Positions 24,002-28,893 of a DNA stretch of 38,321 nt are shown here, piece by piece. Within the stretch, counting starts at the first letter, position 1; each line of letters opens with the position of its first letter. The notes under the pieces are model-generated. The model saw only the letters and a list, made by a program, of their open reading frames with translations, had not been told where the DNA came from and did no database searches. This DNA comes from an uncultured Verrucomicrobiota bacterium (GTDB lineage Bacteria > Verrucomicrobiota > Verrucomicrobiia > Limisphaerales > UBA9464): positions 1 through 38,321 of the forward strand of contig CAIWVP010000206.1 of the NCBI GenBank assembly GCA_903916195.1. The letters run 5' to 3'. The translations under genes were made by a program, and so were the position numbers.

Positions 24002-24943
24002 TCAGAGCGGTTTGACCATCGCGGCGGCGAGGCGCGCGGTGAAGGCCTCGGCGGCGTTGTGGCCGGATTGCTTGAGCTTCGTCTGCAACGCGGCGATCTC
24101 GATGAGGTTCGCCAGGTCGCGTCCGGGCCGGACCGGGATGGTCATGCGCGGGACCGGTTGGCCGAGCAGGTCGGTGGTCTCCTGTTCGAGGCCGAGGCGG
24201 TCCACGTCGTCGTCCGGGTTCCACTGCTTCAACATGATGACCAGGTCGATGCGCTTCTCGCGGCGGATGGCACCGACGCCGAACATCGCGGCCACATCGA
24301 TGATGCCGATGCCGCGCACCTCCATGAGGTCCCGACCGATCTTCTTGGCCGTGCCCATGACATCGAGGCCGTCCTCGAGTTGGAGCAGCACCACGTCGTC
24401 GGCGACCAAGCTGTGGCCCCGCTCGAGCAGGCCGAGCACGGCCTCGCTCTTGCCGATGCCGCTCTCGCCCTGGATCACCACGCCGATGCCCTGGATGTCG
24501 ACCATGCTGCCGTGCAGTTGGCCGCGCGGGGCGAAGAGGTTCTCCAGCGTGAGCGTGGCCCGGTTGATGAACTTCATCGTGATCAGCCCGGTGGTGAACA
24601 GCGGCACGTCGTGCGCCTCGGCCGATTCGATGAAGAGGCGGCCCGGACGCAGGTCGCGGCAGAGCACCATGCAGGGGATGGGATGGCTGAACAGCTCGTC
24701 GACGCGTTCCTTCTGCAGGTCGGGATCGAGCGAACGAAGATAGGCGGTCTCGACGTTGCCGATGACCTGGACGCGTTTCGGCGCGAAGTAGCGCTTGAAG
24801 CCGGCGAGCGCCAGCCCGGGGCGGTTGACGGTCGGTTCGCGGATCGGGCGTTTCAATCCCACGGCACCGGCCACGAGCTGCAAGCCCAACTCGACGGCAT
24901 GACCGTTGTAGAACTGTTGGACGGTGACGGAGGTGGCGGGCAT
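24002..24943 (-). CDS. hprK: HPr kinase/phosphorylase
   Basis: The 313-residue protein matches HprK. The N-terminal domain includes GFKRYFAPKRVQVIGNVETAYL. The Walker A loop is GESGIGKS (residues 159-166), preceded by HGSMVDI (His144). LVADDVV (from residue 179) and EVRGIGIIDV (residues 208-217) form the family's signature P-loop phosphotransfer region. In most bacteria HprK phosphorylates Ser46 of HPr to control carbon use and PTS-linked regulation. No ptsH is in the window. In Proteobacteria it commonly lies at the end of the kdsC-lptCAB-rpoN-hpf-ptsN-hprK cluster. Here kdsC-lptCAB lies upstream, separated by a 486-base repeat-rich gap. The ATG at 24943 is chosen over the longer frame at 24982. 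Confidence 0.95.
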   Translation of the reverse strand: MPATSVTVQQFYNGHAVELGLQLVAGAVGLKRPIREPTVNRPGLALAGFKRYFAPKRVQVIGNVETAYLRSLDPDLQKERVDELFSHPIPCMVLCRDLRPGRLFIESAEAHDVPLFTTGLITMKFINRATLTLENLFAPRGQLHGSMVDIQGIGVVIQGESGIGKSEAVLGLLERGHSLVADDVVLLQLEDGLDVMGTAKKIGRDLMEVRGIGIIDVAAMFGVGAIRREKRIDLVIMLKQWNPDDDVDRLGLEQETTDLLGQPVPRMTIPVRPGRDLANLIEIAALQTKLKQSGHNAAEAFTARLAAAMVKPL

Positions 24944-25033
24944 GGCGGAAGCAGCGTCACGCCAGATCCAGCTCGGTGGCAAGCCGACGTCGCAGGGCAG
25001 GTGCGGTCAGAAGTGGCGGGCACGGCGGCGAAA

Positions 25034-25162
25034 GTAGCGCAGAGTTATGCTCCGTATCGCGGATCTGGAATCCGCAGGCGCTGCGGCAGGTAAGCGTTCG
25101 GGCCTTGCCGACGCCCTGCCGAGTGGAACTCGGCGATACGGCAGGTTGCAAACCTGCGCTAA
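25034..25162. repeat. Multi-hairpin REP-like element, copy 1
   Basis: This about 129-base element begins GTAGCGCAGAG and ends CTGCGCTAA. It contains three or four small hairpins: GCGGAT/ATCCGC, GCCGAGT/ACTCGGC with a 3-base loop, and GCAGGTT/AACCTGC. A degraded first hairpin near 25039 contrasts with an intact one in copy 2. From GTATCGCGG onward the two copies are nearly identical. It sits in the hprK-lptB gap (24944-25429), which has no gene. Confidence 0.88.
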
Positions 25163-25268
25163 GTCCGCCCGATACGCCCTCCGGCTAAGTCTGCCGGCCA
25201 GTCCAAATCGCTCTCTCCGGCAGCGTCACGACGACCGTGACCCGCTCAGTACGCGGGTCCGGTCGGAC

Positions 25269-25400
25269 GTAGCGCAGAGTTGCACTCTGCTGTATCGCGG
25301 ATCTGGAATCCGCAGGCGCTGCGGCAGGTGAGCGTTCGGGCCTTGCCGACGCCCTGCCGAGTGGAACTCGGCGATACGGCAGGTTGCAAACCTGCGCTAC
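25269..25400. repeat. Multi-hairpin REP-like element, copy 2
   Basis: This 132-base direct repeat of the 25034 element starts 235 bases later. Four hairpins are intact: GCAGAGT-TGC-ACTCTGC, GCGGAT-CTGGA-ATCCGC, GCCGAGT-GGA-ACTCGGC and GCAGGTT-TGC-AACCTGC (the last as read on the minus strand). The ends form an inverted repeat, GTAGCGCAG...CTGCGCTAC. Confidence 0.9.
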
Positions 25401-25429
25401 GAGTGTCCGTCACTTCCGATCGTGCCGCC

Positions 25430-26200
25430 TCAGAGGTTGAACTCCGGCCCGAGATAGATCTCCCGGGCCTTCGGGTCGTTCGCCAAGAACTCGGCCGAGC
25501 CCTCGATCAGCACCTTGCCCTTCACGATGATGTAGCCGCGGTCGATCAGCTTCAGCATCTCGCGGGCGCTGTGGTCGGTGATGAGGATGCCGAGGCCGCG
25601 GTCGCGCAGCCGGCGAAGGATTTTCTGCACCTCGTAGACCGCGATGGGATCGATACCCGCGAACGGCTCATCGAGCAGCAGCATCTTGGGGCTGGTGACG
25701 AGCGCCCGGGTGATCTCCAGCCGGCGCTTCTCGCCGCCGCTGAGCTGGTAGGCGCGGCTCTTGGCCAACGACGCCAGATCGAGCTCGTCGAGCAGGTAGT
25801 TCAGCCGGACCGCGCGCTCGGTGCGGTCGCCCTCGCAGGTCTCGAGGATGGCGAGGATGTTCTGCTCCACCGTGAGCTTGCGGAAGACGCTCGGCTCCTG
25901 CGTGAGATAACCGATGCCCAGCCGGGCCCGCTGGTGCATCGCCAGACCGGTGATGTCCCGGTCGCCGAAGGTCACCTTGCCCTCGTCCGGCCGCACCAGC
26001 CCGACGGCCATGTTGAAGCTCGTGGTCTTGCCCGCGCCGTTCGGGCCGAGCAGCCCGACGATCTCACCGGCGTCGACGTGGATCGAAACGCCGTCCACCA
26101 CGCGACGGCCCTGGTACGCCTTGGCGAGGCCGGCGACGGTCAGGAGGCGCCGGGCGTCCTCGGCCGCGGCGGGCTGCGGTGCGTTCGGTTTGCGGCTCAC
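25430..26200 (-). CDS. lptB: LPS export ABC transporter ATP-binding protein LptB
   Basis: The 256-residue ATPase has Walker A GPNGAGKT (residues 52-59), the LptB-typical GDRDITGLAMHQRARLGIGYLTQEPSVFRKLTVEQNI region, signature LSGGEKRRLEI, Walker B MLLLDEPFAGIDP and switch His in ITDHSARE. LptB powers extraction of LPS from the inner membrane with LptFG, which are not in the window. The GTG start at 26200 overlaps the lptA stop by GTGA. The open frame continuing to 26941 is only lptA in another frame. The first 17 residues are a Pro/Ala-rich extension. Operon order is kdsC-lptC-lptA-lptB. Confidence 0.95.
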   Translation of the reverse strand: MSRKPNAPQPAAAEDARRLLTVAGLAKAYQGRRVVDGVSIHVDAGEIVGLLGPNGAGKTTSFNMAVGLVRPDEGKVTFGDRDITGLAMHQRARLGIGYLTQEPSVFRKLTVEQNILAILETCEGDRTERAVRLNYLLDELDLASLAKSRAYQLSGGEKRRLEITRALVTSPKMLLLDEPFAGIDPIAVYEVQKILRRLRDRGLGILITDHSAREMLKLIDRGYIIVKGKVLIEGSAEFLANDPKAREIYLGPEFNL

Positions 26201-26766
26201 TTCACGGAAGGGGCGTTGGTCTTCGCGGACAGGCCCTTCAGCATCTCGGCCTTGAAGGTCATGTGGAATCCGTTGGTCGCGACGAAGCGGCCCCGGGCGC
26301 GGTCGAACGTCAGCAGCGGGCCGCTGAACGCGCCTTCGGCGGTCACCACCTTGGGCAGCCCCGTCGCCACCGATCCAGTGAGCGTGACGGTGTTGTCCGT
26401 GCCGTTGAACACGGCCTGGAACGCCGTCGCGTGCGCCAGTCCTCCCGGCTTCACCGCCAAGGTCACCGAGTTGGTGGTGGGCGGCATCACGATGGCCATG
26501 ACCACGTTCGTCGTGGCGATGATGCGGTCGGGCCGCGGCTTGCCGTTGGCGTCGGGCGCCTGTGCGACCTGCATGTCGTCGCAGGTCAGGTCGAGCACGC
26601 CGGGATAGACGAGGTGGACGTCGCCCCAGAAATGCCAGTTGCCGTTCTTCTGCTCGATGATGCCGTGGGCGGCGTCGAGCGAACCTTCGGGCAACGGCAG
26701 GTCTTCGGCGCCGGCCGCGACGACGAGCAGCGGGGCGATCAGCAGCGGGAGGAGCGTGGGCTTCAT
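26197..26766 (-). CDS. lptA: LptA-like periplasmic LPS transport protein
   Basis: The 189-residue product has a signal peptide (LLPLLIAPLLVVAAGAEDLP) and a beta-strand-rich OstA-like body. The visible units are GIIEQKNGNWHFWGDVHLVYPGVLDLTCDDMQVAQ, RIIATTNVVMAIV, HATAFQAVFNGTDNTVTLTGS, and GAFSGPLLTFDRARGRFVATNGFHMTFKAE. These fit the LptA bridge that carries LPS across the periplasm. Identification rests on the fold pattern and position between lptC and lptB, as direct sequence similarity is low in this family. The start is ATG 26766, where the signal peptide begins; it overlaps lptB by four bases. Confidence 0.82.
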   Translation of the reverse strand: MKPTLLPLLIAPLLVVAAGAEDLPLPEGSLDAAHGIIEQKNGNWHFWGDVHLVYPGVLDLTCDDMQVAQAPDANGKPRPDRIIATTNVVMAIVMPPTTNSVTLAVKPGGLAHATAFQAVFNGTDNTVTLTGSVATGLPKVVTAEGAFSGPLLTFDRARGRFVATNGFHMTFKAEMLKGLSAKTNAPSVK

Positions 26767-26774
26767 CGGCAGGG

Positions 26775-27260
26775 TCAAGGTCGGGGCGGGTTCGCGGGCT
26801 TGGCAGCCGACGCGAACGGATCGGCGCGGAAGGTGACGTGGACTTTGTTCGACAGGACGAGCCGGCCGGATTCGTGGCTCCACGAGAATCCTTCGCCACG
26901 GACCGCGAACTGGCCGTCCGATTGCCGCATCGCGAGTACACCGGCCGACGAGACGTCCTTGGTCGAGAGGTCGAGCAGGCATTCCGGCGCTTCGCCGACC
27001 AGTTCAGGGGTCCCGTCGCCGCGGAAGGTCTCCACCCGGAACTGGCGCACGAGATGGACCGTCGGCGATTTCGGCGTGCTGCTCGCGCCGGTGAAGCGCG
27101 CCTTGAGCAGGCCGGCCTTGTCCTTGTAGGGGAAACTGAAGCCGGACGGGCCGGCCGCCGGACCCGCGGGCGCCTGCGCCCCGGCCCGGAAGACCAGCGC
27201 CATCACCAGGGCGACGGAGGCCAGCGCGGTGGCCAGTTGGACGGTCGAGACCCGCTTCAC
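26775..27260 (-). CDS. lptC: LptC-like LPS transport protein
   Basis: This 161-residue protein has a single N-terminal hydrophobic helix (VQLATALASVALVMALVFRAG) and a strand-rich domain: GFSFPYKDKAGLLKARFTGA, VHLVRQFRVETFRGDGTPELVGEAPECLLD, DGQFAVRGEGFSWSHESGRLVLSNKVHVTF. The closing pattern matches the OstA/LptC-like repeat. By family role it anchors the LptBFG complex and passes LPS to LptA. The GTG at 27260 begins KRVSTV and the membrane helix; the longer frame at 27326 would overlap kdsC. Position and texture support the call more than sequence identity. Confidence 0.7.
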   Translation of the reverse strand: MKRVSTVQLATALASVALVMALVFRAGAQAPAGPAAGPSGFSFPYKDKAGLLKARFTGASSTPKSPTVHLVRQFRVETFRGDGTPELVGEAPECLLDLSTKDVSSAGVLAMRQSDGQFAVRGEGFSWSHESGRLVLSNKVHVTFRADPFASAAKPANPPRP

Positions 27261-28131: not shown

Positions 28132-28893
28132 ATGAGAACAGCCATCGCTTGCCAATCTGGCCTCGTTTGCTTCGCAGTTTTAATGAGCGGCGGCGTATTC
28201 GCCCCTCAAGCTTCCCCGTTTCAAAACCTAGGGTTCGATGACGCCAAGATTGAACTGCTCCCTGGAAACCCTCCTAAACCTCCCACCGGAGGACCTGCGT
28301 TTTGGCTGACTCCAGGGTGGGAGGTGTCAAATCAAGCCATCGGCTGGAACTTGAGCCCGGTGTTCGGCGGCGTAGCGAGCATCCTCGATGTGAATTTCCG
28401 GGACCGTCACTTCGGGCTAAACTCGCCCGCGCCCGTGGTAGGCAATTTCTCGCTCGGCGTGTGGCCAGCGCCAGAAGGCCATCCTTTTACTCTTACCCAG
28501 GCGGGCGACATCCCGGCCGACGCTCAGTCGCTCCACTTCCTCTATCAAGGCGACAACCTGCAGGTGTTCGTCGGCGGCTCCTTGGAGCCGGTGAACTTCA
28601 TCGGCACGCGCCCCACCGACAACCCGGCCGTGGCCACTGCTCCCTACTACGCCGTGGATGTCAGCCCCTTTGCCGGAAATACCGCCGAAGTGCGCTTCGA
28701 GTTCCGCAGCTTCGGCTACGACGACTTCTCCGGTGCCCCCTACATCATCGGCCAACCCAACGCCCAAAGCCATGTGCTGGACGACCTGAGGTTCAGCGCG
28801 CTGCCCGCCAGCGTTCCCGAACCGGGCACCTACGCCCTGTTCGGCCTCGGCTTCGGTGCACTTGTCCTCCACCTCCGCCGCCGACGGCCGTGA
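28132..28893 (+). CDS. PEP-CTERM sorting-domain protein
   Basis: This 253-residue exported protein has a signal peptide (LVCFAVLMSGGVFAPQA) and a C-terminal sorting signal of the PEP-CTERM type. The signal comprises VPEPGTYALFGLGFGALVLHL followed by the basic end RRRRP. Exosortase recognition and removal of that tail is expected, but no exosortase is in the window. The body contains FQNLGFDDAKIELLPG and a strand-rich region (SLHFLYQGDNLQVFVGGSLEPVNF, VLDDLRFSAL), typical of secreted discoidin-like DUF proteins. Base composition near the start is less GC-rich than in the neighbours. Its stop overlaps a GTG start of the next gene (GTGA). Confidence 0.9.
   Translation: MRTAIACQSGLVCFAVLMSGGVFAPQASPFQNLGFDDAKIELLPGNPPKPPTGGPAFWLTPGWEVSNQAIGWNLSPVFGGVASILDVNFRDRHFGLNSPAPVVGNFSLGVWPAPEGHPFTLTQAGDIPADAQSLHFLYQGDNLQVFVGGSLEPVNFIGTRPTDNPAVATAPYYAVDVSPFAGNTAEVRFEFRSFGYDDFSGAPYIIGQPNAQSHVLDDLRFSALPASVPEPGTYALFGLGFGALVLHLRRRRP

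Follow-up and report, generated by a model that had tools for sequence, protein, structure and literature searches.

A compound mobile element with four-hairpin REP-type units, apparently in place of a toxin-antitoxin pair between lptB and hprK of an uncultured Verrucomicrobiota bacterium

We analyzed a window of 38,321 nucleotides, by which we mean the whole stretch of DNA under study (GenBank assembly GCA_903916195.1, contig CAIWVP010000206.1, positions 1 to 38,321 of the forward strand), from an uncultured Verrucomicrobiota bacterium and focused on the region between lptB and hprK. The hprK gene (24002-24943, minus strand) carries the Pfam domains Hpr_kinase_C and Hpr_kinase_N and begins with an ATG at 24943 (the mechanical start of the open reading frame (ORF) is a TTG at 24982); lptB is contained in an ORF with an ABC_tran domain on the same strand (25430-26941), the stop codon of which (25430-25432) lies 2 bp from an element of 429 bp at 24999-25427. 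This element is bounded by 26-bp terminal inverted repeats (TIRs) and encloses two hairpin-rich units, at 25034-25161 (128 bp) and 25269-25400 (132 bp). Both units had been noticed by a model that saw only the letters of the DNA (hereafter, the sequence-only reading) and stand where it had put them; its boundaries were too narrow, as the element extends from TIR to TIR. The hprK-side TIR (24999-25024, plus strand; AGGTGCGGTCAGAAGTGGCGGGCACG, consensus GGGTGCGATCGGAAGTGGCGGACACG) was located by flank alignment and pattern search, and the lptB-side TIR (25402-25427, minus strand) by TIR pairing and comparison with a close relative. Overall, we consider it very probable that two nested mobile systems are present here and that a compound miniature inverted-repeat transposable element (MITE) carrying units of the repetitive extragenic palindromic (REP) type replaced a toxin-antitoxin (TA) pair.

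The genome of the window (G000), a draft of 4.39 Mb, was compared with the congeners G004, G005, G006, G007, G008, G009, and G010, giving eight genomes of the genus. The adjacency and order of lptB and hprK are kept in all eight. The gap between the two genes measures 3-40 bp in G004, G005, G009, and G010, whereas in G008 (hprK 96% identical), G006, and G007 it holds a toxin gene of the PemK/MazF type together with a small ORF. The toxin protein of G008 scores 36 bits on Pfam PemK_toxin (cut-off 23.1); the small ORF beside the toxin gene has no Pfam match and, judged by its place, would encode the antitoxin. In the window, the last 14 codons of such a toxin gene, with the stop codon, remain at 24957-24998 (minus strand) and match the 3' end of the intact G008 gene. 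At the other end, the outermost ~7 bp of the lptB-side TIR match the G008 flank (CGTGCCGCC, 25421-25429), and this TIR therefore looks truncated, with its last 7 bp gone. The comparison indicates that the element stands in place of a TA pair that is still present in congeners. The compound MITE would have entered the TA pair between lptB and hprK, with insertion and deletion together replacing the pair; the simplest order of events would be insertion, followed by deletion from the lptB-side end.

Each unit is laid out as GTAGC, a 7-bp stem with a 3-nt loop, Y, GTWTC, a second 7-bp stem with a 3-nt loop, a core of ~45 nt, and the inverted mirror of these parts, so that its two halves are mirror-symmetric. 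In copy 2 (25269-25400, plus strand), all four hairpins are intact: the outer hairpin 1 (25274-25290) and the inner hairpin 2 (25297-25313) lie on the plus strand behind the tags GTAGC (25269-25273) and GTATC (25292-25296), and the inner hairpin 3 (25356-25372) and the outer hairpin 4 (25379-25395) are inverted, i.e. on the minus strand, with the tags GTATC (GATAC at 25373-25377) and GTAGC (GCTAC at 25396-25400). The four stems whose arms the sequence-only reading had described as covarying (GCAGAGT/ACTCTGC, GCGGAT/ATCCGC, GCCGAGT/ACTCGGC, and GCAGGTT/AACCTGC) are all present in this copy. In copy 1 (plus strand), hairpin 1 is broken (GCAGAGTTATGCTCC), as had also been seen, and hairpins 2-4 are at 25059-25075, 25118-25134, and 25141-25157. 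The copies are 99% identical over 108 nt, with 238 bp between register positions. A local direct duplication, as proposed from the sequence, was rejected because compound copies with the identical 238-bp spacing and a homologous 106-bp spacer recur at other loci (C67, C81, C155, C82, and C142). The spacer of the window (25162-25268) reads as an eroded TIR, other DNA, and a further eroded TIR (GGGTCCGGTCGGA at 25255-25267). Because the compound copies share this spacer with its apparently eroded TIRs, we favor a reading of the window copy as two MITEs fused through eroded internal TIRs.

We compared the folding of both copies with 200 dinucleotide shuffles each and found that both were more stable than 200 of 200, with z scores of -5.8 and -4.5 for the DNA fold and -7.4 and -5.2 for the RNA fold. 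The sequence-only reading had staked its proposal on covariation among copies. In an alignment of 28 elements from many genomes, pairing is kept in 99.1% of the pair cells of the four local hairpins, and changes on both sides are seen in 110 cells, compared with 29.9 ± 4.1 in shuffles; the proposal of modular hairpins with covarying arms thus withstood this test. We conclude that the hairpin structure is under constraint. In the fold of lowest energy, hairpins 1 and 4 merge into a basal stem from which hairpins 2 and 3 stand out as arms. We rejected the idea that a single long hairpin is what is conserved: covariation between hairpins 1 and 4 is weak (30 double changes versus 18 in shuffles, with positions 5-6 often unpaired), and the pairing of hairpins 2 and 3 is lower than in 500 of 500 shuffles, stem position 3 being mismatched in 27 of the 28 elements.

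Genome-wide copies, the other point on which the proposal was to stand or fall, were found by BLAST of the assembly, in which at least 43 places carry the 132-bp unit. The junction signature has 100 matches in this genome, compared with two for the control, and a detector of tagged hairpins found 98 GTRGC and 91 GTRTC tags in ~1 Mb of it. Among the complete distinct elements that we compared (57 from other genomes, termed foreign, and 33 own), unit length is mostly 132-136 bp. The congeners G006 and G007 contain many full-length units (132-136 bp) with sharp ends, GTAGC...GCTAC, and no TIRs were found in these two genomes; the four-hairpin unit is thus an entity of its own, independent of the TIRs. 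Further, the exact left-half pattern occurs in at least 112 stretches, nearly all in Verrucomicrobia metagenome-assembled genomes (MAGs), and in these the mirror half frequently lies at a distance of about 70-150 bp. Two of these loci (L255 in RFSE01000163.1 and L271 in RFSE01000070.1) come from one MAG titled Proteobacteria bacterium, which is likely mislabelled or contaminated. We are dealing with a mobile element that has a fixed set of four hairpins and is shared across genera, and the history suggested earlier, duplication of one stem-loop template followed by paired changes, is unsupported. The GTAG REP superfamily comprises short palindromes with stems of 6-13 bp, a small loop, and an unpaired GTAG tag at one end, and the outer hairpins fit it in having GTAG, C, a 7-bp stem, and a 3-nt loop in many dispersed copies; the inner hairpins, tagged GTAT or GTTT, lack its GTAG tag. 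Inverted REPs recurring as one unit define bacterial interspersed mosaic elements (BIMEs) and REP doublets forming hairpins (REPINs), and we find this arrangement here. We accordingly class the unit as a four-hairpin REP/BIME (REPIN). Its kinds (REP/REPIN with a REP-associated tyrosine transposase (RAYT); MITE) are known; our searches of the open literature turned up neither a report of four-hairpin REP units from Verrucomicrobia nor one of this composition, with its GTAG/GTAT tags and differing inner stems. No match to the element at gathering score was found in Rfam 15, which recognized only a tRNA in the window.

The TIRs emerged from aligning the flanks of genome copies, as inverted repeats outside the unit. 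The pattern GTGCGATCGGAAGTGGCGG, with up to three mismatches, has 102 and 106 matches, compared with one and four for the reversed-pattern control, and the genome contains about 200 TIR ends. We collected 58 TIR pairs in 1.72 Mb. Their lengths peak at 190-196 bp, which corresponds to one four-hairpin unit; other forms are two elements of 89 bp, the 429-bp window copy, and elements with interiors of 260-530 bp. The 9-mers flanking the 58 pairs are equal at seven or more of nine bases in 21 cases (1.3 expected) and at eight or more in 13 (0.1 expected), with four exact 9-mer duplications versus none. As the pairs are flanked by target duplications of 8-10 bp, the elements behave as MITEs, and the family as a whole has the TIRs, target duplications, and lack of a transposase gene that characterize MITEs. 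We conclude that the TIR-bounded elements are a MITE family. TIR pairs of 1.33 and 3.0 kb were examined as candidates for an autonomous element and rejected, as they contain a biotin-synthase-like gene and host-like ORFs instead.

Several observations on single members of the TIR family may be recorded here. The gene within the 1,333-bp pair (G000 C5:45900-47232, L105) reads as biotin synthase (bioB, its translation judged by eye), and the right end of this locus is similar to a degenerate half of the four-hairpin unit; cargo capture is possible. The smallest forms are the 89-bp elements, each with a single tagged hairpin (C54:18836-18924, L116; C6:4224-4312, L122). Two TIR elements (C179:2979-3424, L121; C184:1185-1367, L114) contain repeats similar to those of a different REP type (GTAGGGCAGGCT...AGCCTGCCCTAC), which is also the one found on the flanks of the G008 RAYT (L163). 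A separate MITE subfamily of about 282 bp, with equal TIRs and a different interior, is present on C54, C122, C134, C141, and C42. A TIR or hairpin signature lies within 400 bp of 11 of 90 contig starts, and these repeats thus probably break the assembly.

The window genome has four Y1_Tnp genes, one of which (C176:24906-25640) encodes P0001, a protein of 244 amino acids. P0001 has an HUH motif (NHVHA) and a tyrosine in GYTVRNP, scores 25.4 bits on Y1_Tnp (cut-off 23), and matches the TnpAREP of PDB 4er8 with an E value of 2e-6. Four-hairpin units without TIRs lie on both sides of its gene, and four-hairpin units also lie on both sides of the gene for a homologue that is 59% identical (L385) in VER1, a second, named Verrucomicrobia MAG. 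The hairpins that flank further homologues (L162, L163, L165, and L166) are GTAG-tagged too, with other sequences. From this association of gene and units, we infer that the RAYT mobilizes the four-hairpin unit. For the Group 3 REP of Stenotrophomonas maltophilia, it has been reported that the loop is needed for binding and cleavage by TnpAREP, that a mismatch in the stem is harmful, an unbroken stem mattering for cleavage, and that GTAG is needed for cleavage, which is abolished when its third or fourth base is changed (PMC8266576). These requirements fit both the paired stems of the four-hairpin units and the agreement of their loops, which are identical within an element in 53% of comparisons, compared with 22% between genomes, and agree above shuffles for all six hairpin pairs. 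By analogy, they suggest that the GTAT-tagged inner hairpins bind without normal cleavage.

Some observations weigh against two nested mobile systems as set out above. No target duplication is visible at the window copy, which the loss of one end by deletion would account for. The TIR-pair survey, covering 1.72 of 4.39 Mb (39%) of the draft, revealed no autonomous element with these TIRs; the DDE_Tnp_1 loci are without these TIRs, and IS1595 is absent. P0001 reaches 79.2 bits on the NCBIfam RAYT model NF047646, just below the cut-off of 80. Further, G006 and G007 are rich in units, yet their best RAYT homologues are not flanked by four-hairpin units. Because the units beside the RAYT in the window genome are without TIRs and have stems partly unlike those of the window copies, the TIR route alone may account for the spread of most window-type copies in this genome. 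Most of them do lie between TIRs with target duplications, as would be seen if only the TIR system were mobile and the four-hairpin core were MITE cargo whose hairpins serve no transposase. We consider this very unlikely, since the unit is present in congeners and many other Verrucomicrobia MAGs with abrupt ends at GTAGC...GCTAC and with stems that are intact but different, G006 and G007 among them without detected TIRs, and since RAYT genes are flanked by units in two genomes. The strong RNA fold (z -7.4) and the position between two co-directional genes could also point to an RNA element (an attenuator, stabilizer, or processing site) under selection for control of lptB-hprK, with the covariation reflecting RNA function, and such roles have been ascribed to REPs elsewhere (PMC3733652). 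This is highly improbable for an element that none of the seven congeners has at this place (they carry either the TA pair or a gap of 3-40 bp) and that is present in at least 43 copies elsewhere in the genome, with no Rfam match at gathering scores. The effect on lptB-hprK readthrough put forward by the sequence-only reading is conjectural; we found no promoter match and no intrinsic terminator (a stem followed by a T run) in 24900-25500.

The unlike stems within a unit bear on how the REP-type system works. The two inner stems differ in type, one being GCC and the other GCG/GCA, in 55 of the 57 foreign elements and in 31 of the 33 own ones, and inner stems of equal type occur once, compared with 14.8 expected by permutation in a smaller set. 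This split would be explained by a single ancestral dimer, so that the heterogeneity of the inner stems could by itself date from a single joining of two old REP lineages, as with the Y and Z REPs of E. coli, with no selection against long palindromes or slippage. We regard such an origin as possible but less likely than not: in the 57 foreign elements, which are not independent of each other, the variable stem positions 5-6 are, after orientation, shared too rarely by hairpins 1 and 2 (2 versus 10.0 expected) and by hairpins 2 and 3 (1 versus 7.0), a deficit that goes beyond the type position and is conservative because common descent would be expected to increase such sharing. Hairpins 1 and 3 share these positions more often than expected in the same set (22 versus 12.0), which is unexplained.

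The inner of the two nested systems would be the unit of 132-136 bp, composed of a GTAG-hairpin, a GTAT-hairpin, the core, and the inverted mirror. The RAYT that is flanked by units most likely recognizes the unit as single-stranded DNA and would read the GTAG tag and the 3-nt loop, the stem needing only to pair; it would cleave the unit at its ends, the outer GTAG hairpins, and the inner GTAT hairpins are probably bound without normal cleavage. In the outer system, many units of the window genome would be moved inside MITEs with 26-bp TIRs by a separate transposase that leaves target duplications of 8-10 bp. A more general proposal, which we put forward tentatively, is that a Verrucomicrobiota RAYT lineage spreads an obligate tetrameric REP, in which the outer GTAG is cut, the inner GTAT is bound uncut, and adjacent stems must differ so that separate hairpins form rather than one long palindrome, and that other mobile elements have adopted the unit as their core.

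Elsewhere in the window, we note at 435-565 an array of about 90 bp in which a 7-bp unit (CCTTTTG) is repeated, and at 28132-28893 an ORF in which Pfam recognizes a PEP-CTERM motif (29.7 bits).

Di Nocera et al. (2013, PMC3733652) describe GTAG-tagged REPs and include a verrucomicrobium, Opitutus terrae. Like the REPs and REP dimers of that work, the hairpins described here have short perfect stems, a small loop, and a GTAG tag on one side, form head-to-head (HH) dimers, flank RAYT genes, fall into subfamilies of covarying stems, and prefer heterodimers; unlike that set, the genomes here are mostly from uncultured Verrucomicrobiota. As in REPINs (Bertels and Rainey 2011, PMC3116915) and the BIMEs of E. 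coli, two inverted halves make one replicative unit with a RAYT, and ordered clusters recur with their flanks, but the units here are a doublet of doublets, mostly of 132-136 bp, with an inner pair tagged GTAT/GTTT. The S. maltophilia Group 3 REP (PMC8266576) shares the perfect stem and 3-nt loop, but its stem is of 8 bp, compared with 7 bp here, where loop identity varies between genomes. Like bacterial MITEs, the TIR-bounded elements are small, have TIRs and target duplications, and lack a transposase gene; unlike them, they have a REP-type unit as their core. The lptB-hprK site offers a clean before-and-after case in which a mobile element appears to have replaced a TA pair. Why REP dimers favor unlike partners has been described as having no obvious explanation (Di Nocera et al., PMC3733652). 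The four-hairpin units amount to a large natural experiment, in which stems change freely yet stay paired, loops agree, and neighboring stems avoid each other, and they allow models based on avoidance of long palindromes and models based on protein recognition to be tested against each other.
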